DNA of 55,779 nt from contig JAABQX010000102.1 in NCBI GenBank assembly GCA_011391215.1, positions 1-55,779 on the forward strand, read 5' to 3'. Positions 1 through 54,192 of this stretch are shown here, in pieces (the stretch's first letter is position 1; every line of letters begins with the position of its first letter). A model generated the notes under the pieces. It saw only the letters and a list, made by a program, of their open reading frames with translations, was not told where the DNA came from and ran no database searches. This stretch comes from Rhodocyclaceae bacterium. GTDB taxonomy: Bacteria; Pseudomonadota; Gammaproteobacteria; Burkholderiales; Rhodocyclaceae. The translations under genes were made by a program, and so were the position numbers.

Positions 1-1241
1 GCGAGTTCGAGCTGATCCAGCTGCGCGGCGGCGGCGCTCAGCTGAGTATCTGCAGTGGCCAGTGCTTCGAGATGACGCGCACGGGCAAGCAGGGCGTCTT
101 CGCCATGGCCGCGCCAGCCGGCGACGCGCAGTAACTCGTCATGGAGCAGTTTCACGCCCTCACCACTTTTTGCTGAGAGGGTCAGATGTACCGTGCCATG
201 CACGACATGCCGGCCACTTTCCCGGTGGGCCAGATCGGCCTTGTTTTCGACTACCAGACGCTCGATGCCGTCCGGCAGGCGGGCGGCGACCACCTGGTCG
301 GCCGGCGTCACCCCGGCACGCGCATCGACTATTTGCAGGATTACGTCGGCCTGCCCGATCTCGCGCCAGCTGCGTTCGATGCCGAGCTTTTCGACAACAT
401 CCTCGGTCTCGCGCAGGCCGGCGGTGTCGATGATGTGCAGCGGGATGCCCTCGACCTGGATCGTCTCGCGCACCGCATCGCGCGTGGTGCCGGCGATCTC
501 GGTGACGATGGCACGCTCCTCCCCCGCCAGCCGGTTAAGAAGTGAAGACTTGCCTACATTGGGAAGACCGGCCAGTACGACGGTCAGGCCGGAACGTAGC
601 ACGCTGCCTTCGCCGGCGCGGGCGCGCAAGCGGGACAGATCAGCACGCAGCTTTTCCATGCGAGGAATGATGTCGGTATCAGCAAGCGGGTCGATTTCCT
701 CGTCGGGGAAATCCAGCGTCGCCTCGATCAGGCTGCGCAGCTCGGCGAGCGCGTCAGTAAGTGCATGCACCGCGCGCGAAAACTCACCCGTCAGCGAACG
801 CAGCGCGGCACGCGCCGCCTGTGCCGAGGCCGCCTCGATGAGGTCGGCGATGCCTTCGGCCTGGGCCAGATCGATCTTGTCGTTTTCAAAGGCGCGGCGC
901 GAAAACTCGCCCGGTTCCGCCAGTCGCGCGCCCAGTTCGACACAGCGCGCCAGCAAAGTGTGCATCACCACCGGGCCGCCGTGGCCGTGCAGTTCGAGCA
1001 CATCTTCCCCGGTAAAGGAGTGCGGCGCGGGGAAATGCAGAATCAGGCCTTGATCAAGCGGCGCACCGTCTGCGGCGAAAAAGTCGGCGATGGCGGCACG
1101 GCGCGGGACCGGTTGTTTTCCTGTCAGCGCCAGCACAAAGGGCAGCAGGTCACGGCCGGAGACACGCACCACGCCGATCCCGCCGCGCCCCGGTGGCGTG
1201 GCAATGGCGGCGATCGTGTCCGTAGTTCCGGCAGGTTTCAG
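1..1241 (-). CDS. mnmE: tRNA uridine-5-carboxymethylaminomethyl GTPase MnmE (3' part outside window)
   Basis: MnmE works with MnmG to modify U34 of tRNAs that read split codon boxes. About 413 codons are present and the C-terminal CxGK motif lies beyond the left edge. Translation of the minus strand shows the N-terminal folate-binding domain (TIAAIATPPGRGGIG near residue 8, FPAPHSFTGEDV near 64), a helical stretch, then the G domain with GLPNVGKSS near residue 222, TTRDAI and DTAGLRET. The gene follows yidC by 7 bases. The start is unusual: between an in-frame stop at about 1278-1280 and the conserved N-terminus there is no ATG, GTG or TTG. CTG at 1239-1241, with GAGG five bases upstream, is the best candidate. 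Identity is certain; the start is inferred. Confidence 0.93.
   Translation of the reverse strand, partial: MKPAGTTDTIAAIATPPGRGGIGVVRVSGRDLLPFVLALTGKQPVPRRAAIADFFAADGAPLDQGLILHFPAPHSFTGEDVLELHGHGGPVVMHTLLARCVELGARLAEPGEFSRRAFENDKIDLAQAEGIADLIEAASAQAARAALRSLTGEFSRAVHALTDALAELRSLIEATLDFPDEEIDPLADTDIIPRMEKLRADLSRLRARAGEGSVLRSGLTVVLAGLPNVGKSSLLNRLAGEERAIVTEIAGTTRDAVRETIQVEGIPLHIIDTAGLRETEDVVEKLGIERSWREIGQADVILQIVDARAGVTPADQVVAARLPDGIERLVVENKADLAHRESGRHVVHGTVHLTLSAKSGEGVKLLHDELLRVAGWRGHGEDALLARARHLEALATADTQLSAAAAQLDQLEL
1079..1102 (+). repeat. 24-bp dispersed element, copy inside mnmE
   Basis: It matches the consensus (halves AAAAGTCGGCGC and TGGCGGGACGGC) at 22 of 24 positions. It lies antisense within mnmE, where it encodes RAAIADFF. 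This copy could partly be chance because the surrounding protein is conserved. Confidence 0.5.
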
Positions 1242-1248
1242 AGCACCC

Positions 1249-2856
1249 TCAGTGCGCTTTGAGTCCGGCGCTTTCGATCATGCGATTGACCTGCCATTGC
1301 TGGGCGATCGACAGGAGGTTATTTACCGTCCAGTAAAGCACCAGGCCGGCCGGGAAGAAGAGGAACATCCCCGTGAAGATGACCGGCATCCAGAGCATCA
1401 GCTTGGCTTGCATCGGATCGGGTGGCGCGGGATTGAGCTTGGTCTGCACGAACATCGTCACGCCCATGATGAGTGGCATGACATAAAAGGGGTCCTTCGC
1501 CGACAGGTCGGTAATCCAGCCCAGCCAGGGTGCGCCACGCATTTCCACCGTGCCGAGCAGTACCCAATACAGCGCGATGAAAACGGGAATCTGCACCAGG
1601 ATGGGCAGGCAGCCACCGAGCGGATTGACCTTTTCGCGCTTGTACAACTCCATCATTTCCTGGTTCATGCGCGCACGGTCGTCGGCGTAGGTTTCCTTCA
1701 GCCGCGTCAGCTTGGGTGTCAGCAAACGCATCTTGGCCATCGACTTGTAGCTGGCGGCCGACAACGGGAAAAACGCCGCCTTGAGCATCACCGTCAGCAG
1801 GATGATCGACCAGCCCCAGTTGCCGATGAACTGGTACAACCACTCGAGCACCCAGAAAATCGGCGCGGCGATCATCGTCAGCCAGCCATAATCGACGACC
1901 AGGGCCAGCCCGGGAGCGATCTTTTCGAGCTTGTCCTGTTCCTGCGGGCCGGCATACAGCGGAACGCTCAGTTTGTCGGCCGTCAGGGGCATGATGACAC
2001 CGACCGAGTGCAGGTCATTCCCCAGCTGGCGGGTGAAATATTCACGTTCGCCGGCCGCTGGCAGCCAGGCCGAGAAGAAATAGTGCTGCACCAGCGCGAC
2101 CCAGCCGTTGTCGGCCTTGGTCGGATGCTTGTTCTTTGCCCCGAAATCACCGAAATCGACTTTCTTGAATTTTTCCAGTTCGGTATAGATCGCCGCACCG
2201 GTAAAGGTGGACATCATGGCATTCGCGCCTTCGGGCGCCTTGCCGTCGCGCGTCAGCTGGAAATAAGCATGCGCACCCACCGGTACGGGGGCGCCGACAA
2301 CCGCGTGTTCGACATCCACCAGATAACTGCCGCGTTTGAACACGTAGGTTTTGACAATCTTGCCACCCCCCTCGATGGCCGCCTCGAGCGGCACACGCAA
2401 CTCGCTCTCGCCATCCTTCAACAACAGCGCCTGCGCCGGCAACTGCCAGACGGACTTGTGATTCGGCAGCCCGGCGCCGATCAGCCCGGACTGTGCCGCA
2501 TAGGCATGCGCCGGATCGATCAGGACAAAGTTTTCGGCAGTTTTTTCGGTGGCACGATGGCGCAACAATTCGAGGCGCACCACATCGCCTCCCTGAGCGC
2601 TGATCTCGGCAGCAATCAGATCGGTCTTGATGCTGACCGTCGGGCTGGCAGTTACGGCGGCAGCAACACCCCCCGGAACCACGGCAGGAGTGCTTGAAGA
2701 AGTCGGCGCGGACGGGACGGCGGCATTGCCTGCCGCGCTAGAGGCAGGTTGCACAACACCCCCCGGCGGAGGCTGACCCTGTTTCTGCCAGGCATCCCAC
2801 AGCATCATCGAGGAAAAGAAAAAGACCAGTAGCAGAATAAGGCGTTGGTTGTCCAT
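1249..2856 (-). CDS. yidC: membrane protein insertase YidC
   Basis: YidC inserts proteins into the inner membrane, alone or with SecYEG. The 535-residue product has the usual layout for Gram-negative YidC: an N-terminal membrane anchor (MDNQRLILLLVFFFSS), a proline/alanine-rich linker, a large periplasmic beta domain (about 65-330), and the conserved C-terminal core (WSIILLTVMLKAAFFPLS, then MNQEMMELYKREKVNPLGG and LYWTVNNLLSI). The longer reading frame begins 11 codons upstream, but the family normally starts with MDxQR, so the ATG at 2854-2856 is chosen. It lies in the rpmH-rnpA-yidD-yidC-mnmE cluster. A chance-free identification. Confidence 0.97.
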   Translation of the reverse strand: MDNQRLILLLVFFFSSMMLWDAWQKQGQPPPGGVVQPASSAAGNAAVPSAPTSSSTPAVVPGGVAAAVTASPTVSIKTDLIAAEISAQGGDVVRLELLRHRATEKTAENFVLIDPAHAYAAQSGLIGAGLPNHKSVWQLPAQALLLKDGESELRVPLEAAIEGGGKIVKTYVFKRGSYLVDVEHAVVGAPVPVGAHAYFQLTRDGKAPEGANAMMSTFTGAAIYTELEKFKKVDFGDFGAKNKHPTKADNGWVALVQHYFFSAWLPAAGEREYFTRQLGNDLHSVGVIMPLTADKLSVPLYAGPQEQDKLEKIAPGLALVVDYGWLTMIAAPIFWVLEWLYQFIGNWGWSIILLTVMLKAAFFPLSAASYKSMAKMRLLTPKLTRLKETYADDRARMNQEMMELYKREKVNPLGGCLPILVQIPVFIALYWVLLGTVEMRGAPWLGWITDLSAKDPFYVMPLIMGVTMFVQTKLNPAPPDPMQAKLMLWMPVIFTGMFLFFPAGLVLYWTVNNLLSIAQQWQVNRMIESAGLKAH

Positions 2857-3928: not shown

Positions 3929-5344
3929 ATGAGCCTATTCTGGACGGATTGTCTGGCCCGCTTCGAAAGCGAGTTACCGGCACAACAATTCAATGCCTGG
4001 ATCAAGTCGTTGCGCGTGGAATCCGACGAGGACGGCCGCCACCTGCGCCTGTTCGCCCCGAATGGCTTCATTCTCAAATGGGTACGCGAACGTTACCTCG
4101 ACCGCGTCGAAATATTGTCTAGGCAGTTTTTCAAAGAGCCAGTCACCATTGATCTGATACTCGATGAAACACCATCAAGTCTTGTTCAGGATACCGTCGT
4201 CGATGGTCCTGCCGGCCTCGGTGCTGCGAACATAATTACCGCCGGTAAATCGCCTGTTTTATCCGGGGAAGAAACTTTTTCCATTGAATCCTCAGGTCTT
4301 CCTGAAGACTCTCCCGACTATGATAAGACACGCCTTAACCCGGAATTCACATTCGATACCCTGGTCACGGGTCGCTCCAACGACTTGGCGCGCGCCGCTG
4401 CCCAACAGGTCGCCATCAACCCCGGATCTTCCTACAATCCGCTCTTTATTTATGGCGGTGTCGGTTTGGGCAAAACCCACCTGGTACATGCGCTTGGCAA
4501 CGAAGTACTGCGTCATGCTCCGGATAAGGTGATCCGCTATATCCATGCCGAAGATTATTATTCGGATGTAGTTCGCGCCTTCCAGCAAAAGTCCTTTGAT
4601 ATTTTCAAGCGAACTTATCGCACCATGGATGTATTGCTGGTTGACGACATCCAGTTTTTCAACGGGAAAGCGCGCACACAAGAAGAATTCTTTTATGTTT
4701 TCAACGCGTTGGTAGAAGCAAAAAAACAGATCGTCATTACCTGCGATACCTATCCGAAAGATATCCAGGGACTGGAAGAACGTTTGATTTCACGTTTCGA
4801 TTGGGGTTTGACGGTACAGATCGAACCTCCGGAACTTGAAATGCGCGTAGCAATTCTCAAGAAAAAAGCTGACAGCGAAGCAATTGCACTCGGAGATGAT
4901 GTAGCGTTTTTGATTGCCAAACACTTGCGCTCAAATGTACGTGAACTCGAAGGTGCGCTCAAAAAAGTTCTGGCGTTTTCCCGATTCCACAATCGTCCCA
5001 TTACACTCGAACTGGCCAAGGAAGCACTGAAAGACATCATCGGCGCGCATAACCGCCAGATCACACTCGAACTCATTCAGAAGACCGTTGCCGACTACTA
5101 CAAGATCAAAGTTGCCGACATGTTTTCACAACGCAGAACGCGCGCCGTTGCCCGACCGCGCCAGGTTGCGATGTGGCTGGCTCGCGATCTGACACCCCAT
5201 AGCCTTCCAGAAATTGGCGATGCCTTCGGTGGCCGTGACCACACAACCGTACTGCATGCGTGTCGCACCATTGTCGATTTACGCGCCAAAGATAATCATC
5301 TCAACAACGATGTTCTGGTGCTATCCCAGACCATCAAAGGATGA
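3929..5344 (+). CDS. dnaA: chromosomal replication initiator protein DnaA
   Basis: DnaA binds DnaA boxes at oriC and melts the origin to load DnaB. The 471-residue product shows domain I (MSLFWTDCLARFESELP), a variable linker (about 85-145), and the AAA+ domain with Walker A GGVGLGKT (176-183), Walker B VLLVDDIQF and sensor residues. The C-terminal domain IV signature includes RPRQVAMWLARDLT and GGRDHTTVLHA. The ATG at 3929 has no convincing Shine-Dalgarno sequence. It lies directly behind a strongly AT-rich stretch (about 3898-3928), which may help keep the start unstructured. Flanking DnaA boxes suggest autoregulation. Confidence 0.98.
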   Translation: MSLFWTDCLARFESELPAQQFNAWIKSLRVESDEDGRHLRLFAPNGFILKWVRERYLDRVEILSRQFFKEPVTIDLILDETPSSLVQDTVVDGPAGLGAANIITAGKSPVLSGEETFSIESSGLPEDSPDYDKTRLNPEFTFDTLVTGRSNDLARAAAQQVAINPGSSYNPLFIYGGVGLGKTHLVHALGNEVLRHAPDKVIRYIHAEDYYSDVVRAFQQKSFDIFKRTYRTMDVLLVDDIQFFNGKARTQEEFFYVFNALVEAKKQIVITCDTYPKDIQGLEERLISRFDWGLTVQIEPPELEMRVAILKKKADSEAIALGDDVAFLIAKHLRSNVRELEGALKKVLAFSRFHNRPITLELAKEALKDIIGAHNRQITLELIQKTVADYYKIKVADMFSQRRTRAVARPRQVAMWLARDLTPHSLPEIGDAFGGRDHTTVLHACRTIVDLRAKDNHLNNDVLVLSQTIKG

Positions 5345-5558
5345 AATCAAGCATGTATAAGCCTCTTAATATCGTCTGGATAAAATGTGGATAAGTTAAC
5401 CTTCAAGCTGAAAATCACTATCCATACACATTCATCCACAAGCCGTGAACAAGTTTTCCAGAGCCTTTAAGTGAATATAACACCTTGTATCTTATAAACA
5501 TAAACCAACTTTCCACAACTCGACGTGCCCTTCATCATCATCATAAGGAGTTTTAGAG
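5345..5558. other. candidate replication origin (oriC) between dnaA and dnaN
   Basis: This AT-rich 214-base gap holds a perfect DnaA box read on the minus strand at 5386-5394 (TGTGGATAA on plus). It also holds a one-mismatch box TCATCCACA at 5432-5440, and weaker two-mismatch matches such as 5509-5517. Sequence around 5465-5505 is particularly AT-rich and could be the unwinding element. The dnaA-dnaN gap is a common oriC location; a shared role with the gap upstream of dnaA is possible. Confidence 0.6.
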
Positions 5559-9168
<3,610 letters not shown>

Positions 9169-9192
9169 AAAAGTCGGTGCCGGCGGGATGGC
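9169..9192 (+). repeat. 24-bp dispersed element after gyrB
   Basis: 21 of 24 positions match the consensus. It begins at the base after the gyrB TGA stop, in gyrB orientation. Confidence 0.8.
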
Positions 9193-13125: not shown

Positions 13126-14295
13126 TTACAAAGCGTGGCGGCGGTCGCCGCGCGCGAAGCCCGACAAGGGTGTGTCGATGCCGCGTCCCAAAACAATCAC
13201 CTTGAACAGTTCGCCCATTTCGCCCGGCGCGAGCAGCAGTTGTACTGCGCCGTTCGCGCGCAAGGCCTGTTCGCCGCCCGCCCGCTGACGTTCGACCAGC
13301 AGTTCGCCGATGCCGCAATTGATCAGGAAGCTGGCCTGGCTGGTGTAACCCAACACATCGAGTCCGGCAGCAAATCCGGCTTCGGCCACCGCCGTGAAAT
13401 CGACATGGCTGGTGATGTCTGACAAACCCGGCCACCAGAAAGGATTTTCGTGGGCACGCTGGCGGTAATGGCAACGCAGCGTGCCGTGATTGCGTTGCGG
13501 GTGATACAGCTCGTGGCGCGGCAGGCCGTAGTCGATCAGCAACAACGCGCCGTGCGTCAGCCGGTGCCCCCACTCAGCCACCCAGGCATGGGCCGTCAGG
13601 CTGATTTCGCTTGCGTAGGGCGCAGTCACTGGCAGGGTGGTCATCACCTCGGCAAGTCTGCCTGTGGCCGGGCGTTCGGCCCAGGCGAATCCGTCTTGCG
13701 TCAGCACCACGCCGCGCTCCAGCAAGCCCGATTCACGCCAGGCCACGGCGTGCGTCGGCAAGGCATCGAGCAGTTCATTGGCGATGACGCAGCCCGAGGT
13801 CTGTTCCGGCAAGGCATCGAGCCAGGTCACAAGATTGATCAGATGCGGTGCCTCGGTTTGCAGCGTCACCTGCTGGCGTGCCCGCAACTCACCCGATAAT
13901 TCGAGGATGCAATAACGGTCCGGTAATGTGTTCAGTGTTTCCAGCGCCAACAGGATATCGGCCGCCAACCGTCCGCTGCCGGCACCGACTTCCAGAATAG
14001 TCGGCGCTGGCGAGACGGCAAGAATCTCCATAACCTGCCGTGCCAGCGTCTGGCCGAACAGGGGTGTGATCTCCGGTGCGGTGATGAAATCGCCCGCCGC
14101 ACCAAACTTCAGCGAACCGCCCGCGTAATAGCCCAGACCCGGCAGATGGAGCGCCATGTCCATGAAATCGACAAAGGGCAGCCAATCGCCGGTGTCGGCA
14201 ATGCGTCCGGCGATGCGGGATGAGAGTGCACGACTGGCGGCCTGGGCGTCGGCAGAGGGGTCAGGTAGGTTCGGGTCGGACGATGGCAGCGTCAC
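13126..14295 (-). CDS. SAM-dependent methyltransferase of the MidA/NDUFAF7 family (COG1565)
   Basis: The family methylates an arginine of a respiratory complex I subunit in mitochondria; bacterial members are uncharacterised homologues. Visible features are FVDFMDMALHLPGLGYYAGG, the SAM-binding ILEVGAGSGRLAADIL, NELLDALPTH and LLLIDYG followed by the tyrosine/histidine-rich loop. The product is about 389 residues. The start is uncertain: GTG at 14293-14295 gives an N-terminus like its relatives, while the open frame runs to 14349. It marks the left flank of the integron, whose last degenerate attC lies just upstream. Confidence 0.85.
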   Translation of the reverse strand: MTLPSSDPNLPDPSADAQAASRALSSRIAGRIADTGDWLPFVDFMDMALHLPGLGYYAGGSLKFGAAGDFITAPEITPLFGQTLARQVMEILAVSPAPTILEVGAGSGRLAADILLALETLNTLPDRYCILELSGELRARQQVTLQTEAPHLINLVTWLDALPEQTSGCVIANELLDALPTHAVAWRESGLLERGVVLTQDGFAWAERPATGRLAEVMTTLPVTAPYASEISLTAHAWVAEWGHRLTHGALLLIDYGLPRHELYHPQRNHGTLRCHYRQRAHENPFWWPGLSDITSHVDFTAVAEAGFAAGLDVLGYTSQASFLINCGIGELLVERQRAGGEQALRANGAVQLLLAPGEMGELFKVIVLGRGIDTPLSGFARGDRRHAL

Positions 14296-16251: not shown

Positions 16252-16275
16252 AAAAGTCGGCACCGGCACGACGGC
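16252..16275 (+). repeat. 24-bp dispersed element inside an integron cassette
   Basis: 20 of 24 positions match the consensus, the weakest copy accepted. It lies 14 bases upstream of the cassette promoter, in the untranslated leader part of the cassette. Confidence 0.65.
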
Positions 16276-17980: not shown

Positions 17981-18750
17981 TGAGTGAAACATTTTCCACC
18001 CGCCGCTTCGGCGGCATCGAACGGCTTTACGGCGCGGGGAGTCTGGCGCGGCTGACGGCGGCGCATGTTTGTGTGATCGGCATCGGCGGCGTGGGGTCGT
18101 GGGCGGTCGAGGCGCTGGCGCGCTCGGGAGTGGGGCGGCTGACGTTGATCGATCTCGATCATGTGGCGGAATCGAATATCAACCGGCAGGTGCAGGCCCT
18201 GGAATCGACCATCGGTCAGGCCAAGGTAGCGGCGATGCGCGAACGCGTCCGGCAGATCAATCCGGCTTGCATGGTCGATTGCATCGAGGAATTCATCACG
18301 CCGGAAAACGTCGCCACGTTGTTGCCTCTATCGTGCGCAGTTGATGTGGTGATCGACTGTATCGACCAGATGAAAGCGAAGGCCGCGCTGATCGTGCATT
18401 GCCGGCGCAACAAAATTCCTGTGCTGACCACTGGCGGTGCAGGCGGGCGCACCGACCCGACGTGTATCCGTATCGACGATTTATCGCGCACCACACAGGA
18501 TGCTTTGGCCAGCAAGCTGCGCGCGCATTTGCGCAAGGATTACGGATTTCCGCGCGAGCCGAAAAAGAAGTTCGGCGTGCCTTGCGTGTTTTCCGATGAG
18601 CCAATCCGGCGACCCGCAGCGGCGGCGTGCGATGTGGATGAGGCGGGATTGCATGGCCTGAATTGCGCCGGGTATGGTTCCTCAGTTGCGGTCACTGCCG
18701 GTTTTGGCTTTGCCGCAGCAGCGCATTGCCTCGGTATACTCACCCGATGA
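17980..18750 (+). CDS. tcdA: tRNA threonylcarbamoyladenosine dehydratase (TcdA/CsdL)
   Basis: An E1-like enzyme that uses ATP to cyclise t6A37 of tRNAs to ct6A. The 256-residue product starts with the family pattern RRFGGIERLYG. It has the nucleotide-binding GIGGVGSWAVEALARSG, DLDHVAESNINRQ, the DCIDQMKAKAALI segment and the GGAGGRTDPT loop. The ATG overlaps the intI stop; a GTG one codon earlier is also in frame. It is first in a chain of overlapping genes (tcdA, pteridine reductase, ttcA, aminotransferase), two of them tRNA-modification genes. Confidence 0.92.
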   Translation: MSETFSTRRFGGIERLYGAGSLARLTAAHVCVIGIGGVGSWAVEALARSGVGRLTLIDLDHVAESNINRQVQALESTIGQAKVAAMRERVRQINPACMVDCIEEFITPENVATLLPLSCAVDVVIDCIDQMKAKAALIVHCRRNKIPVLTTGGAGGRTDPTCIRIDDLSRTTQDALASKLRAHLRKDYGFPREPKKKFGVPCVFSDEPIRRPAAAACDVDEAGLHGLNCAGYGSSVAVTAGFGFAAAAHCLGILTR

Positions 18751-19487
18751 TTCCCCCTGTCGTTTTGATTACCGGCGCCGCGCGCCGAGTCGGCGCCGAA
18801 ATTGCCCGCACGCTGCACGCAGCAGGCGCCAGTGTGGTGTTGCACTATCGCGCTTCCGCAGCGGAGGCGGAAGCCTTGGCAGCCGAACTGAATGCCCGGC
18901 GCAAAAAGTCGGCGCTGGCAATACGGCATGATCTGGGCGAGAGCGCCGGCCTATCCGCTTTGATCGAGGGTATCTTGGGCCATTTCGGTCGGCTCGATGC
19001 GCTGGTCAATAATGCGTCGAGTTTTTACCCGACCCCTGTCGGTGCCATCGACCAAGCCGCCTGGGACGACCTGATCGGCAGTAATCTCAAAGGTCCGCTC
19101 TTTCTCAGCCAGGCGGCCGCGCCGCATCTGGTCAAGACGAACGGCTGCATCGTGAACATCACCGACATCCATGCCGAACGCCCGCTGAAAGGCTACCCGC
19201 TCTACTGTGCGGCCAAAGCCGGCCTGCTCGGCTTGACCCGCGCGCTGGCGCTGGAACTGGCACCGGCGGTGCGCGTGAATGCCGTCGCGCCGGGCGCCAT
19301 AGAATGGCCGGAAAACGATAGCGACTTTCCGGCGGCCGAGCAGGCAGCGATCATCGCTCACACTCTGCTCAAACGCGTCGGCTCCCCCACAGACATCGCC
19401 CGCACGGTGAAATTTCTTATCTTTGACGCGCCTTATATCACCGGCCAGGTGATCAACGTCGATGGCGGCAGGACAGCACATCTGTGA
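18747..19487 (+). CDS. pteridine reductase, short-chain dehydrogenase (FolM/PTR1-like)
   Basis: An NAD(P)H-dependent reductase of dihydropterins, which in bacteria may also reduce dihydrofolate or monapterin precursors. Its 246 residues carry TGAARRVG, the TGxxxRxG pattern that marks pteridine reductases within the SDR family. It also has NNASSF, the catalytic YCAAKAG and [12 protein letters not shown]. The ATG overlaps the tcdA stop by 4 bases. A 24-bp dispersed element lies within the gene at 18904-18927, encoding KKSALAIR in a variable surface region. Confidence 0.87.
18904..18927 (+). repeat. 24-bp dispersed element inside the pteridine reductase gene
   Basis: 21 of 24 positions match, in sense orientation. 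The first 16 positions are identical to the consensus. Confidence 0.75.
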
Positions 19488-20371
19488 CAACGTACAAGGT
19501 TGCCCACAAACAGGAGTTTGAACACAACAAGCTCGCCAAGCGCCTGCGCCGCGAGGTCGGCCAAGCGATTGCCGACTTCAACATGATCAAGGAAGGCGAC
19601 CGCGTGATGGTTTGCCTGTCGGGCGGCAAGGATTCCTTTGGCCTGCTCGACGTGCTGCTCTACCTGAAGGAAAAGGCGCCGATCAACTTCGAGATCATCG
19701 CCGTCAATCTCGACCAGAAGCAGCCGGGCTTTCCCGCCGAGGTGCTGCCGGCGTATCTCGATGGGCTGGGGATTCCCTACCGCATCGTCGAAGAAGACAC
19801 TTATTCGATCGTCAAGCGCGTGATTCCCGAGGGCAAGACCACGTGTTCGCTGTGTTCGCGGTTGCGGCGCGGCATCCTTTACCGCGTCGCCGATGAAGTG
19901 GGCGCGACCAAGATCGCGCTCGGCCACCACCGCGACGACATCCTCGCCACGCTCTTCCTCAACCTGTTCTTCGCCGCCAAGCTGAAGGCGATGCCGCCCA
20001 AGCTGGTGTCGGACGACGGCCGGCACATCGTCATCCGTCCGCTCGCCTATTGCCAGGAGAAGGACCTGATCGAATGGGCGAACGTGCGCGAGTTTCCGAT
20101 CATTCCCTGCAACCTCTGCGGTAGCCAGCCCAACCTGCAGCGCCAGCAGGTCGGCGCGATGCTGCGCGACTGGGACAAGCGCTTTCCCGGCCGCGTCGAA
20201 ACCTTGTTTCGCAGCTTGTCCAACGTCGTTCCCTCGCACCTGATGGACGCGCGGCTGTATGATTTTGCTGGCCTCAAGGCAACCGGCACACCCGATCCGG
20301 AAGGTGATACCGCCTTCGATCCTGCCGTCCTGCCAGCGCCGACTTTTCCTGTTCATATCGAGACATCATGA
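19484..20371 (+). CDS. ttcA: tRNA 2-thiocytidine(32) synthetase TtcA
   Basis: It thiolates C32 of some tRNAs using ATP and an iron-sulfur cluster. The 295-residue protein has the PP-loop [12 protein letters not shown] near residue 46, the two conserved CxxC pairs CSLC and CNLC, and [14 protein letters not shown]. It starts at GTG 19484, overlapping the previous stop by 4 bases, and its own stop overlaps the next ATG. The poorly conserved C-terminal tail ([10 protein letters not shown]) is encoded by an antisense copy of the 24-bp element. Confidence 0.94.
20324..20347 (-). repeat. 24-bp dispersed element at the 3' end of ttcA
   Basis: 23 of 24 positions match. It is antisense to ttcA and ends 24 bases before its stop. 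Confidence 0.85.
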
Positions 20372-23554: not shown

Positions 23555-23568
23555 GCGTATTAATACGC
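23555..23568. repeat. perfect 14-bp palindrome upstream of the symporter gene
   Basis: GCGTATTAATACGC lies about 50 bases upstream of the symporter start and directly beside a 24-bp element. It could be an operator for the symporter gene. Confidence 0.45.
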
Positions 23569-23590
23569 TGTCCCGCCAGCGCCGACTTTT
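23567..23590 (-). repeat. 24-bp dispersed element after the V-ATPase operon
   Basis: 23 of 24 positions match. It starts 6 bases after the stop of the subunit D gene, in sense orientation. Confidence 0.88.
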
Positions 23591-24217: not shown

Positions 24218-24243
24218 GGCGGGGGAGTGGGCAAGCGGCGCAG

Positions 24244-28092: not shown

Positions 28093-28114
28093 GGATTTCT
28101 CCGGAAACCGTGCT

Positions 28115-28456: not shown

Positions 28457-28468
28457 TGCGCTGTGCCC

Positions 28469-28921: not shown

Positions 28922-28953
28922 TTTTTTCTCCTAGAAACGGAACGTTCAGAACT

Positions 28954-32686: not shown

Positions 32687-32710
32687 GCCGTCCCGCCAGC
32701 GCCGACTTTT
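32687..32710 (-). repeat. 24-bp dispersed element after ubiB (perfect consensus copy)
   Basis: All 24 positions match the consensus, whose two halves are AAAAGTCGGCGC and TGGCGGGACGGC. It begins at the base after the ubiB TAA stop, in sense orientation. Confidence 0.9.
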
Positions 32711-34258
32711 TTACAGCAGGATTGCCACCAGGATTGCCGCTGTCGCCAGCACCATGGCGATCTGGGCCTGCCGGCGGCTCGCTTGCGCTGCTTCGCGCAG
32801 GCGTACCAGTTCTTCATCTGCTGTTGTACGTGCGTTGGCTTGCGTCAGCGCCTGATGGACGAGGCGTGGCAGTTGTGGCAGCAGGGTCGCCCATTGCGGT
32901 GCTTCGCGCTTCAAGTGGTTGATGAAACCGCGCGGCCCGAGTTGTTCGCTCATCCAGCGTTCGAGGAAGGGCTTGGCGGTCTGCCAGAGATCGAGGTCGG
33001 GGTCGAGCTGGCGGCCGAGGCCTTCGATGTTGAGCAGGGTTTTTTGCAGTAGTACAAGCTGCGGCTGGATCTCGACATTGAAGCGGCGCGAGGTCTGGAA
33101 CAGGCGCAGTAACACCTTGCCGAAGGAGATCTCCTTCAGTGGCCGGTCGAAAATCGGTTCGCAGACGGCGCGCACGGCTGCTTCCAGTTCATCGACGCGT
33201 GTCTCGCGCGGCGCCCAGCCGGATTCGATGTGCGCTTCGGCGACGCGCTTGTAGTCACGGCGGAAGAAGGCAAGGAAGTTGATCGCCAGGTAGTTCTTGT
33301 CCGTCTCGGTGAGCGTGCCGACAATGCCGAAGTCGAGAGCGATGTAGCGGTTGAAGGTAGCCGGCGCGTTGGCGACGAGGATGTTGCCTGGGTGCATGTC
33401 GGCATGGAAGAAGCCATCACGGAACACCTGGGTGAAAAATAGTTCGACCCCGGTGCGCGAGAGCAGCTTCAAGTCGATGCCGGCTGCGCGCAAGCGATCG
33501 GTCTGGCCAATGGGAATGCCGTGCATGCGCTCCATCGTCATCACTTCGTGGGTGCAGTAGTCCCAATGCACTTCGGGCACCAGCAGCAGCGTCGAGTCGG
33601 TGAAATTGCGCCGCAGTTGCGAACAGTTGGCCGCCTCGCGCATCAGGTCGAGTTCGTCGGCGAGGTGCTTGGAAAACTCGGCGACAACCTCGCGTGGCTT
33701 GAGGCGCTTCCCATCGCTCCAGAAGCGTTCGAGCAAGCCGGCAAAGGTGTCGAGCAGCGCCAGGTCGTGGGCAATCACCGGTGCGATGCCCGGCCGCAAC
33801 ACCTTGACGGCGACTTCGTGTCCATCGGGCAGGGTGGCAAAGTGGACTTGAGCAACAGAGGCCGAGGCGACGGGTACCGGCTCGAAGCTGCCGAAAATCT
33901 GGTCGAGCGGCCGGCCAAAACTCTTCTCGATTTCGGCGATGGCCTCTTCAGAGGGGTAAGGCGGTACGCGATCCTGTAACAGCGCCAGTTCGTCGGCCAG
34001 GTCGGCGGGCAGCAGGTCGCGGCGGGTCGATAGCACCTGGCCGAATTTGACGAAGATCGGCCCGAGCGCCTCGAGCGCCTCGCGCAGCCGCTGGCCGCGC
34101 GGCGCGGTGAGATCGGCGACATTGCGCCAGAAGCAAAGCCCGTTAAGCAGCTTGAGCGGCAGGGCGAGACGGCCCTCGGGGTCGTGCTCGAGAATCAGCT
34201 GGTCGAGGCCAAACTTGAGGCCGACGCGGGTAATTTTGGCGAGACGAAAGAGGCGCAC
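32711..34258 (-). CDS. ubiB: ubiquinone biosynthesis protein kinase-like UbiB
   Basis: A membrane-anchored atypical kinase/ATPase needed for ubiquinone synthesis, probably by extracting intermediates from the membrane. The 515-residue protein has the KxGQ motif in [16 protein letters not shown] and the modified A-rich loop [12 protein letters not shown]. It also has the catalytic HADMHPGN, the metal-binding ALDFG and a C-terminal membrane segment ([16 protein letters not shown]). It is monocistronic here and separate from ubiTVU at 48-50 kb. A perfect 24-bp element abuts the stop. Confidence 0.95.
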
Positions 34259-38083: not shown

Positions 38084-38107
38084 GCCGTCCCGCTGGCGCC
38101 GACTTTT
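38084..38107 (-). repeat. 24-bp dispersed element after the msrAB fusion
   Basis: 22 of 24 positions match. It begins directly after the stop codon in sense orientation. Confidence 0.86.
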
Positions 38108-39382
38108 TCAGTCGGGCACGAACTTCAGCACATTGCCGTTGATGCAATAGCGTTTGCCGCTGGGCTTCGGGCCGTCGTCGAAGACGTGACCAAGATGGAT
38201 GCCGGAACTGGCGCTCCTGACCTCGACACGGCGCATGCCGTGGGCGGAATCCACATGTTCGGTCAGGGCGCCCGGCAGCGGATTGAAGAAACTCGGCCAG
38301 CCGGTGCCGCTGTCGAACTTGGTATCGCTGCGAAACAGCGCCGCGCCGGTGATCGGATCGACGAAAGTGCCGGGACGCTTTTCGTCGAGATGCGAACCCG
38401 TACCAGGGCGCTCGGTGCCCTGCTCGAAAGCGATTTTCTGCTGCTCCGGCGTCAGCAGGTGAAAGCCCAGCCACTTCCAGAAGCGCGGCTGCTCGCCGTT
38501 ATAGCCCGTGTAGCGCGAAACCTCCTTGCCGTTTTCGAACAGCACGATGGTCGGCGTGGCGAACAAGGCTTTTTCCAGTTTCCAGCCGGCGGGCGGCGCG
38601 GTGTTGTAGGTGCGCGCAATTGGCACTGCGGACTTCCACTTGTCGAGCACCTCGGCCTTGAACTGCTTGCAGTAGGCGCAGTCGGTCGCCTCGAAGACGA
38701 TTAGTTGGCGCTTTAAGTTCAAGGTCTTGGCATCCAGCGGCGGGTTATCCGCCGGCGTGTCCGTCTTGGCGGCTACCGAACCGGGAAACTTGACGCCGGT
38801 GCCGCCGAGACCGCAGTAACCATTGGGATTCTTCTTCAGATAGTCCTGATGATAGGTTTCGGCGGCATAGTATTTTTTCAGCGGCGCGATGTCGGTGGTG
38901 ATCGTCTGGTGACCGGCCTTCGTCAAGGCGGCCTGGTAAATATCGCGCGTCTTCAGGGCGCTGGCCAGTTGCGCATCGTTGTTAGTGTAGATCGCACTGC
39001 GGTAGTTGGTGCCGACATCGTTGCCCTGGCGGTCGCCCTGTGTCGGATTGTGGCTTTCCCAGAAACGCGCCAGCACGGTTTCGAGGCTGACCTTGGCCGG
39101 ATCGAAGCTGACCTTGACGACTTCTGCATGATTGCGCTGGGTGGTCTTGCCGCGCTTCACGGCGTTTTCATGCGCCAGCACCGCCTCGTAATTGCCGGCG
39201 ATGTCGCCGTTGGCGTAGCCGCTTTCGACATCGGTGACACCGGCCAGTTCGCCCATGCGCTTTTCCGCGCCCCAGAAACATCCCATGCCAAGGACGATGG
39301 TTTCGGTTGCGGCAGCGAATGTCGGCATGGTCGGCATGGTCAGGATCCCCAAGGTAAGCAGTAGTCGAATAAATTTGGTCAT
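38108..39382 (-). CDS. msrAB: secreted MsrA-thioredoxin-MsrB methionine sulfoxide reductase fusion
   Basis: A 424-residue three-domain repair enzyme for oxidised methionine in exported proteins. After a signal peptide (to about residue 24) comes MsrA with the catalytic C35 in GMGCFWGAE and C190 in GYCGLGG. A thioredoxin-like domain (about 218-305) has C235 and C238 in CAYC. MsrB (about 308-424) has the catalytic C413 in RYCING but lacks the zinc-binding CxxC pairs. The thioredoxin-like domain sits between the two reductases, whereas in Neisseria PilB it is N-terminal. It diverges from chaN. Confidence 0.88.
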   Translation of the reverse strand: MTKFIRLLLTLGILTMPTMPTFAAATETIVLGMGCFWGAEKRMGELAGVTDVESGYANGDIAGNYEAVLAHENAVKRGKTTQRNHAEVVKVSFDPAKVSLETVLARFWESHNPTQGDRQGNDVGTNYRSAIYTNNDAQLASALKTRDIYQAALTKAGHQTITTDIAPLKKYYAAETYHQDYLKKNPNGYCGLGGTGVKFPGSVAAKTDTPADNPPLDAKTLNLKRQLIVFEATDCAYCKQFKAEVLDKWKSAVPIARTYNTAPPAGWKLEKALFATPTIVLFENGKEVSRYTGYNGEQPRFWKWLGFHLLTPEQQKIAFEQGTERPGTGSHLDEKRPGTFVDPITGAALFRSDTKFDSGTGWPSFFNPLPGALTEHVDSAHGMRRVEVRSASSGIHLGHVFDDGPKPSGKRYCINGNVLKFVPD

Positions 39383-39495: not shown

Positions 39496-40665
39496 ATGGA
39501 CTCCATGAGACATCTCCTGCTGCTGGCAGTTCCCTTGTTTACCCTGGCGACCTCCTGCGCCGGCGAGTCGGCCAAGGCGGTTACCTGCGGCCAGCCCGGA
39601 CAATGGCGTCTGACGGATGCCGGACCCTCCGCGCCGCTGGAAGGCGGACCATTGCTGGAGCGCCTGGCGCGGCAGCAGGTTGTGCTGCTGGGCGAGGCGC
39701 ACGACAGCGCCGAAGATCATCGCTGGCAACTGCACACGCTGACGCAACTGTTTGCCCGCCAGCCGCGCATGGCCCTCGGTTTCGAGATGTTTCCGCGTCG
39801 CGTGCAACCGATCCTCGACCAATGGGTGGCTGGCACGCTGGCGGAGGATGAGTTTCTCAAGCGTGTCGAATGGAACAAGGTCTGGGGCTACGATGCACGC
39901 GACTATCTGCCGCTGTTTCACTTCGCGCGCATGAACCGCCTCCCGATGCTTGCTCTCAACGTCGAGCGCAGCCTGCCCGAAGCCGTCGGCAAGCTGGGTT
40001 GGAATGACGTACCCGACGCGCAGCGGGAAGGTGTGACCCGTCCGGCGCTGCCCGGCGCCGCCTATCGCAAGGAGCTGCAACGGGTGTTCGACCAACATCC
40101 GGCCAAGGAAAAGAAGGACAAGTCTGCGTTTCCGCGCTTTGTCGAAGCCCAGACCGTGTGGGATCGGGCCATGGCGCAAGTCATGGCGGATTACCTCAAA
40201 CAAGCACCCGGCGCACTTGTTGTCGGCATCATGGGCGCCGGCCATGTGCGCGATGGCCACGGCGTGGCGCATCAGCTGAAAGACCTGGGCATCGCCCAGA
40301 CTGGCGCGCTGATGACCTGGGATCACACCGAGAACTGCGCGAATCTCGGCAAGGGATTTGCCGACGCGCTCTATGTGATTCAGCCGCCGGCTGGCAATAC
40401 GCCGCGTCTGGGGGTGGCGACCGAACCGACGGCGGGTGAAAGCGGCGGGTTGCGAATTGTCGAGGTGACGGTGGGCAGCATCGCCGCCACATCGGACCTC
40501 AAGAAAGGCGATGTCATCCTCGAAATTGCTGGGCGTCCGGCAAAAAATTTCATGACCTTGCGCCAGGCCGTGCAGCGGCAAGCACCGGGTACGTGGCTAC
40601 CGCTGAAGATTCGCCGCGACGGCAGCGACAGCGAAATCATCGCGCGTTTTCCGCCAGCCCCATGA
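39496..40665 (+). CDS. ChaN-like lipoprotein with C-terminal PDZ domain
   Basis: A 389-residue exported protein. The N-terminus (LLLAVPLFTLATSCAGE) looks like a lipoprotein signal. The main domain is the ChaN/haem-binding uptake family (PF04187), with VVLLGEAHDSAEDHRWQL, ALGFEMFPRRVQPILDQW and GIMGAGHVRDGHG; relatives bind haem or have a TIKI-like metalloprotease fold. A PDZ domain follows (about 300-385, with LKKGDVILEIAGRPAKNF). GAAGG lies ten bases before the start. It overlaps the next gene by 4 bases, which suggests the two work together in the envelope. Confidence 0.83.
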   Translation: MDSMRHLLLLAVPLFTLATSCAGESAKAVTCGQPGQWRLTDAGPSAPLEGGPLLERLARQQVVLLGEAHDSAEDHRWQLHTLTQLFARQPRMALGFEMFPRRVQPILDQWVAGTLAEDEFLKRVEWNKVWGYDARDYLPLFHFARMNRLPMLALNVERSLPEAVGKLGWNDVPDAQREGVTRPALPGAAYRKELQRVFDQHPAKEKKDKSAFPRFVEAQTVWDRAMAQVMADYLKQAPGALVVGIMGAGHVRDGHGVAHQLKDLGIAQTGALMTWDHTENCANLGKGFADALYVIQPPAGNTPRLGVATEPTAGESGGLRIVEVTVGSIAATSDLKKGDVILEIAGRPAKNFMTLRQAVQRQAPGTWLPLKIRRDGSDSEIIARFPPAP

Positions 40666-42647
40666 AGCGTTGGCTATTCGTACTTCCCCTGTTGCTGGGG
40701 TGGTCGCTGGCGGCGCGGGCCTTGCCCGAGCTTGATATAGCGGTTGAGCTCAATCCCGCCACCCGGCAGTTCAATGCCACTGCGACCCTGAGCGACGCCG
40801 CAGGGCTGTCGGGTTTCCGGCTCGGGCCGGACTTCGAGATCACGGCAATGAAGGTCAATGGCCAGGCCAGCCAGGCTACGCGCCGCTCATTAAGCCGTCT
40901 CGCCAACGCCGACTTTTCCCTGCCGCGCGGCACGCGGCGCGTGGAAATCACTTACCGGGCGACGCTCAAGCCGCTGCAAGTGCTTGATCATCGTCAGGTG
41001 CTCGGCTACCGTGCGGGCGCCGCCGATCCCGAGGGCAGCTTCCTGCCCGGAGCGGCCGGCTGGTATCCGGATGCCGGCAAGCTCTTCAGTTACCGGCTCA
41101 CGTTCAAGCTGCCGGCTGGGCAAAAAGGTCTGGTGCCGGGCAATCTCATCGATGAAACCGATACGGCGGCCGGCTACCGCGCCCGCTTCGAGTTTCCTCA
41201 CCCCGTTGATGGCATCGACCTGATGGCCGGGCCTTACACAGTGAGCGAGCGCTCGCTCAAGCGGGCGAACGGTGAGGATATTCGCATCCGCACCTGGTTT
41301 CACGCCGAGCTCGCGCCGCTCGCGCAGGGCTATCTCGACGACTCGGCACGCTACATCGAACGCTACAGCCAGCTGATCGGTGCCTACCCGTTTGCCCTGT
41401 TCAGCGTGGTCTCAAGCCCGACGCCCACCGGCTTCGGCATGCCCAGCCTGACTTACCTCGGGCGCGACGTCATCAAACTACCCTTCATTCGCGCCACCTC
41501 GCTCGGCCACGAGGTGCTGCACAACTGGTGGGGCAACGGCGTCTATCCGGACTGGCAAAAAGGTAACTGGTCGGAGGGCTTGACCACTTTCCTCGCCGAC
41601 TATGCCTACAAGGAAGCCGAGAGCGCCGATGCCGCACGCGAAATGCGCCTCGCCTGGCTGCGCGACTACGCCGCCGTGCCGGCCGGTTCCGAGACGGCCC
41701 TGAAGGATTTCACTTCGCGCCATCACGGCATTTCCTCCATCGTCGGCTACAACAAGGCGGCGATGGTTTTCCTGATGCTGCGCGATGAAATCGGCGTCGC
41801 GGCATTCGAGCGCGGCCTGCGTCTGTTCTGGGAGAAGAAGCGCTTCCAGACGGCGGCTTGGTCCGATCTCGATGCAGCGTTTTCAGCGGCGGCGCAACGC
41901 TCGCTGAGCGGATTTTTCCGCCAGTGGGTGGAACGCCCCGGCGCGCCGGAATTACATCTGAAGGCCGCTGAACAGGCAGGCGACACGCTCACCCTCCACT
42001 TGAACCGGCCCGCTTATGCCCTCGAGCTTCCCCTGCGGCTGAACTTTGCCGACCGTAGCGAAATGCGCACGGCGCCGTTGCGCGGCGACAGCATGCGCCT
42101 GCCGCTCAAGGTCTCGGGCAGTGTGCAAAGTGTTGAACTCGACCCCGACTACCGGCTGTGGCGGCGCGTCGATAGCGCCCTCCTGCCGGCCATCCTGCGC
42201 GAGGTTTTCGTCGCGCCCACTGCCGCCGTGGTTGCCATTGATGCGGAGATGGGCAGTGCCGCGCAAGGTCTGGCGGCGCGCGTGCTCGATGCCAAAGCCG
42301 CCCCAGTGATGGCGGAGCGTCCTGCCGGCCGGCCCGTGCTGGTCATCGGCCGGCCATCCGCTATCGATGACTGGCTGAAAAAACAGGGCCTGCCGCCTCG
42401 CCCCGCCATTCTGACGCCTGAGTCGCATAAAGCCAGCGCCCAGGTCTGGGCCGGGCGTGATGGCAGCGGGATACCTTACGTCGTTGTTGCCGCGCGCGAT
42501 GCCGCCGCCATCACCGCGCTGGAACGCGGTCTGCCGCATTACGGCAAACAAAGCTGGCTGGTCTTCGACGGTGCGCGGGCGACCGCGAAGGGAGTTGGCG
42601 CGCCCCGCGCCGCGCCGGTGAAGGTCAGCGCGGCACCGGTACGCTAA
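40662..42647 (+). CDS. secreted M1-family zinc aminopeptidase-like protein
   Basis: A 661-residue exported metallopeptidase. It has a signal peptide (MKRWLFVLPLLLGWSLAARA), an N-terminal beta domain, and the exopeptidase-type GFGMPSLTYLG in place of GAMEN. The zinc site is HEVLHNWWGNG (HExxH) with the downstream glutamate in SEGLTTFLADY. The C-terminal 150 residues or so form an extra domain (APTAAVVAIDAEMG onward) not recognised. The start at 40662 overlaps the ChaN stop. One 24-bp element lies inside the gene and another overlaps its stop. Confidence 0.82.
   Translation: MKRWLFVLPLLLGWSLAARALPELDIAVELNPATRQFNATATLSDAAGLSGFRLGPDFEITAMKVNGQASQATRRSLSRLANADFSLPRGTRRVEITYRATLKPLQVLDHRQVLGYRAGAADPEGSFLPGAAGWYPDAGKLFSYRLTFKLPAGQKGLVPGNLIDETDTAAGYRARFEFPHPVDGIDLMAGPYTVSERSLKRANGEDIRIRTWFHAELAPLAQGYLDDSARYIERYSQLIGAYPFALFSVVSSPTPTGFGMPSLTYLGRDVIKLPFIRATSLGHEVLHNWWGNGVYPDWQKGNWSEGLTTFLADYAYKEAESADAAREMRLAWLRDYAAVPAGSETALKDFTSRHHGISSIVGYNKAAMVFLMLRDEIGVAAFERGLRLFWEKKRFQTAAWSDLDAAFSAAAQRSLSGFFRQWVERPGAPELHLKAAEQAGDTLTLHLNRPAYALELPLRLNFADRSEMRTAPLRGDSMRLPLKVSGSVQSVELDPDYRLWRRVDSALLPAILREVFVAPTAAVVAIDAEMGSAAQGLAARVLDAKAAPVMAERPAGRPVLVIGRPSAIDDWLKKQGLPPRPAILTPESHKASAQVWAGRDGSGIPYVVVAARDAAAITALERGLPHYGKQSWLVFDGARATAKGVGAPRAAPVKVSAAPVR
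40894..40917 (-). repeat. 24-bp dispersed element inside the peptidase gene
   Basis: 22 of 24 positions match. It is antisense to the gene, where it encodes RLANADFS. Confidence 0.78.
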
Positions 42648-42669
42648 AAGTCGGCTCTGGCGGTACGGC
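42646..42669 (+). repeat. 24-bp dispersed element overlapping the peptidase stop
   Basis: 22 of 24 positions match. Its first two bases are the last two of the TAA stop; sense orientation. Confidence 0.84.
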
Positions 42670-46751: not shown

Positions 46752-46774
46752 GCCGTCCCGCCGGCGCCGACTTT
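46752..46774 (-). repeat. 24-bp dispersed element overlapping the MazG-like stop
   Basis: 22 of 24 positions match, counting the neighbouring G at position 1 as a mismatch. It shares one base with the TGA stop; sense orientation. Confidence 0.84.
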
Positions 46775-47100
46775 CAGGGTGCCGGATATTTGAGTGCGTT
46801 CTTGACGATCTTGTCGCGGGCGGCGGCGATCAGATCGATATCGAGCACATCGGCCAGTTCGACCAGGTAGATCAGCGTATCGGCCACCTCGTCGCGGATT
46901 TCCGAGAGCTTTGCCGGCGACGGTGCAAGGCTTTCCTCTGGCGTCGCCCACTGGAAGTGTTCGACCAGTTCGGCGGCCTCGACGATCATCGCCATCGCGA
47001 GGTTCTTCGGGGTGTGGAAGGGCTTCCAGTCACGCGCAGCGGCGAAGTCGCGCAGGGAAAGCTTGAGGGAATCGAGGTCAGTAATGGTGGCGGGGACCAT
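46774..47100 (-). CDS. MazG-like nucleotide pyrophosphohydrolase
   Basis: A 108-residue house-cleaning pyrophosphatase of the MazG/RS21-C6 type that hydrolyses nucleoside triphosphates, possibly dCTP or modified nucleotides. The all-helical fold has the metal-binding pattern AEAAELVEHFQW (written here as EAAELVEHFQW) followed by EIRDEVADTLIYLVELAD, the ExxE and ExxD pairs of the family. HTPKNLAMAM precedes it. It starts 2 bases after the VanZ stop, so they are co-transcribed. Confidence 0.87.
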   Translation of the reverse strand: MVPATITDLDSLKLSLRDFAAARDWKPFHTPKNLAMAMIVEAAELVEHFQWATPEESLAPSPAKLSEIRDEVADTLIYLVELADVLDIDLIAAARDKIVKNALKYPAP

Positions 47101-50631: not shown

Positions 50632-50655
50632 AAAAGTCGGCACTGGCGGGATGGC
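50632..50655 (+). repeat. 24-bp dispersed element between ubiU and the Cache-GGDEF gene
   Basis: 22 of 24 positions match. It lies 3 bases from the stop of the minus-strand cyclase gene but in the opposite orientation, unlike the other stop-proximal copies. Confidence 0.85.
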
Positions 50656-52125: not shown

Positions 52126-52135
52126 GGCCCGAATT

Positions 52136-53560: not shown

Positions 53561-53571
53561 GGGATTCCTTT

Positions 53572-54192
53572 CTAGTCTTTGCCCCGAACCACGGTGGCCG
53601 GGATGCTACTTTGAGACAACTGGTTACGCGCCCGGTTCATTTCTTCGACGCTGGCATAGGGGCCGATGCGCACGCGGTGCATCACGCCCTTGTCCGGCAC
53701 GGTGACCTCGACCACGTTCGCCTCGAAACCAAGCATCGCCAGGCGGGCTTTCAAATTATCCGCATCGGCGCTTTTCTGGAAAGCGCCGACCTGCAGGAAC
53801 TGGCTGCCTGATGTGGGGGTCGCCGCCGGTGTCGCAGCGGCTGTCGCCGGCGCCGGGTTCTTGGTCGTTGGCGTACCTGACGCACCCGGCGTACCGCCAG
53901 GCGTCGCCTGTTTCTTGCCCTCAAGGATGTCGTAGAAATCGAACTTGCGCTCGAGCGGCTTGTCGCCCGGCTTGCCCGGCAGGGCCACGGGCGCCTTGTC
54001 AGCCTCACCGTTGAGTTTTGCCTCCGGCTTCGCTCCCTTGTCGACAAAGGGCAACGGCGTCTTGTTGAGTAACCAGACCACCCCGAAAGAAATCAACACG
54101 CCGACCACCAGGCCGAGGGCCAGGCCAATCAGGGTGCCGCCAGCCTGGTATTGGCCGTCCCGCCAGCGCCGACTTTTGAGAATTTTCTTCAT
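53572..54192 (-). CDS. SPOR-domain membrane protein
   Basis: A 206-residue inner-membrane protein. It has a basic cytoplasmic start, one membrane segment (about 19-40, GLALGLVVGVLISFGVVWLL), a Pro/Ala/Thr-rich linker and a C-terminal SPOR domain (about 128-204). That domain has FLQVGAFQKSADADNLKARL and HRVRIGPYASVEEMNRARNQL, which binds denuded peptidoglycan at division sites. This is the FtsN-like architecture that usually follows argS in betaproteobacteria. The start at 54192 overlaps the argS stop (TGATG). The cytoplasmic segment KSRRWRDG is encoded by a perfect 24-bp element. Confidence 0.88.
   Translation of the reverse strand: MKKILKSRRWRDGQYQAGGTLIGLALGLVVGVLISFGVVWLLNKTPLPFVDKGAKPEAKLNGEADKAPVALPGKPGDKPLERKFDFYDILEGKKQATPGGTPGASGTPTTKNPAPATAAATPAATPTSGSQFLQVGAFQKSADADNLKARLAMLGFEANVVEVTVPDKGVMHRVRIGPYASVEEMNRARNQLSQSSIPATVVRGKD
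54154..54177 (-). repeat. 24-bp dispersed element inside the SPOR gene (perfect consensus copy)
   Basis: All 24 positions match. It is in sense orientation, five codons into the gene. Confidence 0.9.

Follow-up and report, generated by a model that had tools for sequence, protein, structure and literature searches.

Why does a non-palindromic 24-bp element recur throughout the DNA of a Rhodocyclaceae bacterium, both inside and between genes? The first-pass annotation of the window (the whole stretch analysed here, 55,779 nucleotides) listed 13 copies, which it likened to a DNA-uptake sequence, a protein-recognition sequence or a spreading short element. All 13 exist at the coordinates and on the strands that it gave, 12 with at most three mismatches and the one at 16252(+) with four; two, at 32687 and 54154, are perfect. 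It had overlooked two others, at 2698(+) (three mismatches) and 13996(+) (two mismatches), so that the window holds 15 copies with at most four mismatches (Table 1). The claim that the nine leading positions are invariant save position 1 holds for the 13, but the overlooked pair differs at positions 2 and 3; the denial of any inverted-repeat structure was correct. The 24-mer with at most three mismatches has an expected mean of 0.00 in 100 dinucleotide shuffles of the window, and the ten leading bases of the motif occur 11 times, against 0.13 by chance. The largest copy-free gap corresponds to an A/V-type ATPase operon, the remaining large gaps to ordinary genes.

Table 1. Copies of the 24-bp element in the window and their gene context
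Feature	Positions	Strand	Context
Copy, 2 mismatches	1079..1102	+	within called gene 3-1172(-)
Copy overlooked earlier, 3 mismatches	2698..2721	+	within yidC 1249-2856(-)
Copy, 3 mismatches	9169..9192	+	immediately 3' of gyrB stop codon, gyrB 6685-9168(+)
Copy overlooked earlier, 2 mismatches	13996..14019	+	within called gene 13126-14295(-)
Copy, 4 mismatches	16252..16275	+	intergenic
Copy, 3 mismatches	18904..18927	+	within pteridine reductase gene 18747-19487(+)
Copy, 1 mismatch	20324..20347	-	within ttcA 19484-20371(+)
Copy, 1 mismatch	23567..23590	-	intergenic, 6 bases past last ATPase gene 23597-24217(-)
Perfect copy	32687..32710	-	immediately 3' of stop codon, ABC1-kinase gene 32711-34258(-)
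Copy, 2 mismatches	38084..38107	-	immediately 3' of stop codon, msrA/msrB-type gene 38108-39328(-)
Copy, 2 mismatches	40894..40917	-	within called gene 40662-42647(+)
Copy, 2 mismatches	42646..42669	+	overlaps stop codon of 40662-42647(+)
Copy, 2 mismatches	46752..46775	-	overlaps end of called gene 46774-47100(-)
Copy, 2 mismatches	50632..50655	+	intergenic
Perfect copy	54154..54177	-	in short called ORF 53572-54192(-), just downstream of argS 54192-55778(-)

The element is also present outside the window, where its absence had been proposed as a refutation: in the assembly of 2.33 Mb a strict pattern has 122 + 140 matches, and the reversed control has 0. We counted 131 copies in a 443-kb sample of the assembly. 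This sample, drawn from contigs with known copies, is enriched: its strict sites number 1.58 per 10 kb, those of the remaining assembly 1.02. We therefore state about 490 copies per 2.33-Mb assembly rather than a direct extrapolation. The motif spans 24-25 bp and carries about 35 bits, with sharp edges, uninformative flanks and spaced invariant modules, and its copies are found in both orientations. Their spacing is more even than chance (CV 0.645 versus 0.928 +/- 0.075, reached in 0 of 2000 simulations), and by crude gene calls they are about five-fold rarer in coding than in non-coding DNA (0.18 versus 0.84 per kb).

Across the family, 38 of 297 Rhodocyclaceae genomes contain between 10 and 476 copies; these carriers fall into six genera. 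A further genome has 13 copies, and the remaining 258 have 0-8. One species of the source genus (G006) is without the motif, as are most genera of the family. When we looked through 60 kb of each of two motif-free genomes for other abundant 10-mers, nothing comparable emerged. Among the carriers we observed species-specific motif 'dialects' at similar densities of about 2-4.5 per 10 kb. Sites turn over between species, the total staying similar, and dialect changes are concerted across hundreds of sites. In contigs called viral, a site within three mismatches of the 23-bp core occurs in 94 of the 120 stretches listed, some of which may be host contamination.

Are individual sites conserved? 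The site at 18904 is found, with at most four mismatches and at the same length, in 11 of 15 relatives. Of the comEC sites, one occurs in five species and is absent without length change in ten, and another is kept in 16 of 17 comparable species; at invariant amino acids of this gene, third-position identity is 0.95 inside the motif and 0.59 outside. Conservation at orthologous sites thus exceeds protein constraint, as judged from few loci, with two of the three gene tests partly circular.

A 2025 paper (PMC12616744), in the passages drawn on here, describes uptake sequences as known only in Neisseriaceae and Pasteurellaceae. Judged by its sequence patterns, our element is probably a DNA uptake sequence and would form the third such system; in open-licence PMC text we found no published report of the motif for Rhodocyclaceae, Nitrosomonadales, Azoarcus or the core 13-mer. 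Abundance, edges, occurrence in both orientations, even spacing, coding depletion, synonymous conservation, lineage restriction and dialects are genomic hallmarks of uptake sequences. Of the traits of the DUS/USS class, those found here are an above-chance motif in two orientations, an even spread with coding depletion, orthologous conservation beyond protein constraint, and dialects. Among the three explanations offered by the first-pass annotation, uptake has the strongest support, which comes from the distribution, the dialects, the evenly spaced copies and the conserved sites; a generic protein-recognition site stays its main rival.

Uptake, a receptor and a drive by biased uptake are what we infer from this pattern. 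The 24-mer would mark extracellular double-stranded DNA as 'self', and a receptor in an uptake machine resembling a type IV pilus would recognise it. Fragments that match well would be preferentially taken up and then recombined into the genome; good matches would consequently build up, persist at orthologous places and become evenly spread, being kept mostly where genes are least disturbed, and lineage dialects may arise by drift together with the receptor. More tentatively, environmental Rhodocyclaceae could have evolved a third such system independently. Its 'self' motif would be contiguous over 24-25 bp and come in five or more dialects, one or more species of the genus would lack it, and the receptor and periplasmic DNA binding would operate without a standard ComEA. 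If true, sequence-selective uptake would extend to a third family, one of environmental bacteria, and would not be bound to animal mucosa. The motif would also provide a fresh dialect set for mapping receptor specificity, and the question of one shared ancestral pilin receptor versus several origins would become testable.

Of the genes of a competence machinery, comEC, dprA and those for GspH-type pilins were each found in 18 of 19 source-genus genomes. ComEA gave no match above the cut-off in these 19 genomes, which counts against uptake; the HHH_3 matches lie in frames of 620-1723 amino acids, save two weak ones (G002:C2 and G010:C9). Nor does ComEA serve as a marker of the motif: outside the genus it exceeds the cut-off in two of ten carriers and in seven of the 20 remaining genomes. 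A further point against uptake is the motif-free G006, which has both comEC and dprA; possession of these genes is therefore no predictor of the motif. As a receptor candidate, we dropped the weaker GspH match in G017 because it adjoins other pilin-like genes and a gene for a 1166-aa protein, a neighbourhood that we take to be an MSHA-type cluster. Also counting against uptake, no close inverted pairs were seen: of 117 neighbour distances a single one falls below 100 bp, and it separates two copies in direct orientation. In the DUS/USS class such inverted pairs commonly serve as terminators, although the trait is not a defining one. Further points against are that the motif is longer and sparser than the DUS, that some orthologous comparisons are gapped and one comEC site lies at an indel (see below), and that contigs called viral have copies too.

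Could the motif instead be the recognition site of a chromosomal DNA-binding protein (for nucleoid organisation, repair or segregation), with selection acting on each site and a need of the protein for regular spacing accounting for the even spread? We consider this main rival rather unlikely. In its favour are the sharp edges, high information content and spaced invariant modules of the motif, the even spacing, the synonymous-site conservation and the failure to find ComEA. Against it speak turnover of sites between species at similar totals, concerted dialect shifts over hundreds of sites, and the absence of the motif from most genera of the family and from one species of the source genus. 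Chi- and KOPS-type motifs show strand or replichore polarity. In the complete genome G211 (63 strict sites) we detected no strand polarity, the best two-arc split being no better than shuffles (P=0.78), which counts for uptake and against this rival. On the lack of an origin/terminus strand switch in this one genome we rejected a replichore-oriented motif of the Chi or KOPS kind.

That the copies stem from a tiny repeat, mobile or spread by recombination, which some enzyme would place anew and which would be comparable to cyanobacterial small dispersed repeats, seems improbable to us. Near-identity of the motif across genera, together with patchy copy number, would fit such spread, and 27 of 67 pairwise orthologous comparisons are gapped, intergenic copies often lying opposite gaps; an indel also falls at one comEC site. 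However, precise empty sites one element shorter were not seen at 18904 or at comEC columns 648 and 1723, which are empty at equal length; spacing is even, with few close neighbours, and the dialects are concerted. The spreading element suggested earlier is disfavoured because genic sites are mostly present or absent without insertion, despite the gapped comparisons and the comEC indel. Least probable of all, and by our estimate very unlikely, is a transcription or mRNA 3'-end signal, an idea raised by the several copies that abut stop codons (of 25 intergenic copies that lie 3' of a gene and on its strand, 6 begin there). Against it, 69 of 131 copies are genic, 35 sense and 34 antisense, the motif has no dyad, and a separate hairpin and T run follow the gyrB copy. 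An Rfam scan of the window yields a tRNA alone, on which we also rejected an RNA element.

How does the putative uptake sequence compare with known systems? The DUS of Neisseriaceae, as described in the parts of PMC3630211 and PMC2397512 used here, has at least hundreds of copies in both orientations and lineage dialects, and is conserved above its flanks and denser outside genes, with absent sites opposite unrelated or gapped sequence. Copy number, orientations, dialects, conservation, non-coding enrichment and the look of absent sites are common to the Rhodocyclaceae motif. The DUS is a contiguous motif of at most about 13 nt (excerpts of PMC12616744) with a density of about 9 per 10 kb (Table 1 of PMC2397512), whereas ours is longer, sparser and of different sequence, with no inverted-pair terminators seen. 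The USS of Pasteurellaceae is portrayed, in the relevant portions of PMC12616744 and PMC7811141, as a long, discontinuous motif in which weaker parts accompany a strong core, with a relatively even distribution and types that differ by clade. These features are shared, and by eye the USS core AAGTGCGGT bears a vague likeness to the Rhodocyclaceae core AAAAGTCGGC; our motif, however, is G+C-rich rather than A+T-rich downstream, belongs to another bacterial order and has a lower density. Cyanobacterial small dispersed repeats are about 20-30 bp long with many dispersed copies, and REP/REPIN elements are likewise short, abundant and dispersed. Unlike the former, the Rhodocyclaceae element has evenly spaced copies and concerted dialects, its genic sites being mostly without insertion; unlike the latter, it is non-palindromic, frequently genic and mostly without empty-site structure.

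The dispersed, non-palindromic 24-bp element, AAAAGTCGGCGCTGGCGGGACGGC, has 14 matches with up to three mismatches in the window, versus none in 100 dinucleotide shuffles, a chance background of the kind suggested by the first-pass annotation. All 13 copies described there were recovered (that at 16252 with four mismatches), and two overlooked ones (see table) bring the window total to 15. Nor is the element confined to the window, which the annotation had named as a refuting outcome: in the 2.33-Mb assembly (76% complete), a strict pattern with 18 fixed bases matches at 122 places in forward and 140 in reverse orientation, and its reversed control at none. We collected 131 copies with up to four mismatches (20, 44, 39, 18 and 10 with zero to four, respectively) from 443,304 bases of the source genome, in which the reversed control had no match with up to five mismatches. 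This sample, the window plus 20 stretches from contigs already known to carry copies, is copy-rich (1.58 strict sites per 10 kb versus 1.02 in the rest of the assembly); scaled by the strict count, the estimate for the whole assembly is about 490 copies.

Among the 131 copies, information is limited to positions 1-24 and a purine at 25, about 35 bits in total, and is strongest at 2-4 (A), 6-10 (TCGGC), 14-16 (GGC) and 20-24 (ACGGC), with looser positions at 11-13 and 17-19. By a crude gene caller written for this analysis (366 genes, 87% coding), 69 copies lie within genes, 47 are intergenic and 15 span gene ends, with densities of 0.84 per kb in non-coding versus 0.18 in coding DNA. Intragenic copies divide into 35 sense and 34 antisense, next to which an RNA signal is an unlikely reading, and neighbouring copies occur in all orientations (++ 26, +- 28, -+ 27, -- 36). 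Spacing is more even than under random placement disregarding gene structure (CV 0.645 versus 0.928 +/- 0.075; as low in 0 of 2000 simulations), and four of 117 gaps are shorter than 500 bp, versus 16.7 expected.

As the first-pass annotation had proposed, we compared orthologous loci (19 source-genome loci, 67 pairwise comparisons); intragenic sites in relatives are mostly kept, and better than their flanks. Leaving aside G006, a motif-free member of the genus, the 36 ungapped intragenic comparisons have up to five mismatches in 32 cases, six to nine in three and ten in one; the element itself averages 0.85 identity versus 0.66 for 80 flanking bases, and exceeds its flanks in 33 of the 36. 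The four ungapped gene-edge or intergenic comparisons each have at most five mismatches. The 27 gapped ones (13 intragenic, three intragenic against G006, eight gene-edge, three intergenic) fit insertion or alignment trouble alike and do not decide. A mobile repeat, the annotation's spreading element, is an unlikely reading.

We compared comEC as a codon alignment of 18 genomes. Where the amino acid is invariant, third codon positions inside the column-648 site have an identity of 0.95, versus 0.59 in the rest of the gene (14 species; a value reached by 0 of 20,000 random codon sets). Column 1723 gives 1.00 versus 0.58 (five carriers, P=0.0005) and the pteridine reductase gene 0.88 versus 0.62 (12 carriers, P=0.0019), two tests that are partly circular since carriers were selected by their match. 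Because these positions are more conserved inside the element than elsewhere, the DNA word itself is under maintenance, beyond protein constraint.

Strict counts range from 0 to 407 across the 19 genomes of the genus, a spread to which dialects contribute. A loosened pattern gives 129-476 sites in 11 of 12 genus genomes and 0 in G006; among 297 genomes inferred to belong to Rhodocyclaceae, 38 from six genera (g1, g2, g9, g38, g46, g112) have 10-476, G040 has 13, and 258, G006 included, have 0-8. The exact 24-mer occurs in 114 stretches; among the 80 matches listed, most are Rhodocyclaceae, other titles being Sulfuritalea, Sulfurisoma, Propionivibrio and a few more. Carriers with at least four sites have 2.0-4.5 per 10 kb of fetched stretches, except G001 (1.3), several samples being small and fetched via matches to element-bearing DNA. 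Sampled DNA of G006 (98 kb), G036 (60 kb) and G192 (60 kb) has no sites. G016 favours C5 (20 of 35 sites) and G20 (28 of 35), G026 favours T10 (12 of 21), and G005 has T24 (11 sites), hence its low strict count; the consensus has A25 in G002, G004, G013 and G017. Low counts elsewhere are at times bunched on one contig, as expected if the DNA of such clusters was acquired from carrier species or was assigned to the wrong genome bin.

Passages in the literature describe the uptake sequences of Neisseriaceae (DUS) and Pasteurellaceae (USS) as abundant, with lineage dialects, better conserved than their flanks, fairly evenly spread and scarcer in coding and newly acquired DNA (PMC3630211, PMC2397512, PMC12616744, PMC7811141), with unrelated or gapped sequence opposite where absent (PMC3630211, PMC2397512). 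Our element resembles them in abundance, dialects, conservation above flanks, unrelated or gapped empty sites, evenness and coding depletion. It differs in length, is sparser than the Neisseria sequence (about 9 per 10 kb by calculation from Table 1 of PMC2397512), and shows none of the inverted-pair terminators of known uptake sequences (117 neighbour distances). It is most likely a new uptake-sequence system, the first of the annotation's readings, whose copies would be kept in the genome by biased uptake plus recombination; searches of open PMC text turned up no report of an uptake sequence in Rhodocyclaceae or of this motif. As to newly acquired DNA, the largest copy-free part of the window is an A/V-type ATPase operon that may have been imported, but other large copy-free gaps hold ordinary genes, and contigs called viral also bear copies.

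The competence genes to which the annotation pointed were found in part. Both comEC and dprA are present in 18 of the 19 genus genomes, motif-free G006 included, as are GspH-type pilins in all but the incomplete G000; pilin-like N-termini occur in stretches of G017, G016, G003 and G006 and in source-genome stretch L139. ComEA was above cut-off in none of the 19, and HHH_3 matches lie in frames of 620-1723 aa, which we take to be Tex, save two weak ones in G002 and G010. Among genomes from elsewhere than this genus, 2 of 10 carriers have ComEA above the cut-off, as do 7 of 20 other genomes. Core translocation genes therefore exist in the genus, these 19 genomes yielded no match above cut-off to the usual DNA-binding protein of the periplasm, and none of comEC, dprA, GspH-type pilins and ComEA predicts the motif. 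The main alternative is a protein-binding site on the chromosome that is selected directly, the annotation's protein-recognition sequence, which maintenance of the DNA word would also suit. In the complete genome G211, from another carrier genus (63 strict sites), the best two-arc split by strand does not improve on shuffles (P=0.78).

Locations of element copies and neighbouring features
Feature	Location	Observation
Additional copies	2698; 13996	
Pteridine reductase gene site	18904	15 relatives align at equal length: up to 4 mismatches in 11, 6 in G002, 9 in G008 and G010; missing from G006
Largest copy-free part	23.6-32.7 kb	
A/V-type ATPase operon	23597-31877	complete-looking (subunits D, B, A, E, F, C, I, AC39; Pfam); no 24-mer; between copies at 23567 and 32687
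Region that looks like a dnaA-dnaN-gyrB origin	3929-9168	called genes 3929-5344 and 5610-6662 (putative dnaA, dnaN) between yidC and gyrB
comEC site	column 648	17 species can be compared: present in 16 (alignment-shifted in two), missing from G006
comEC site	column 1723	five species carry it with 1-4 mismatches; ten have sequence of equal length with 9-15 mismatches and no site; three align poorly, among them G005 (4-mismatch copy, similar context, column 1253)
comEC site	column 3098	additional; two species
comEC site	near column 3649	nine species; coincides with indel
comEC site	column 4403	four species; opposite unrelated, doubtfully aligned sequence
Small clusters of near-perfect copies	G195:C148 (three sites within ~4 kb); G121:C104; G147:C1 1.46-1.50 Mb	genomes otherwise nearly motif-free
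Tandem array including the motif	L243:883-2238	viral contig; five pattern matches, first four at constant 316-bp spacing

In G002, 100 kb of sequence (stretches L163-L167) contains 7-8 copies of a separate word, TGGACAATCTGGGTT-like and bearing no relation to the 24-mer.
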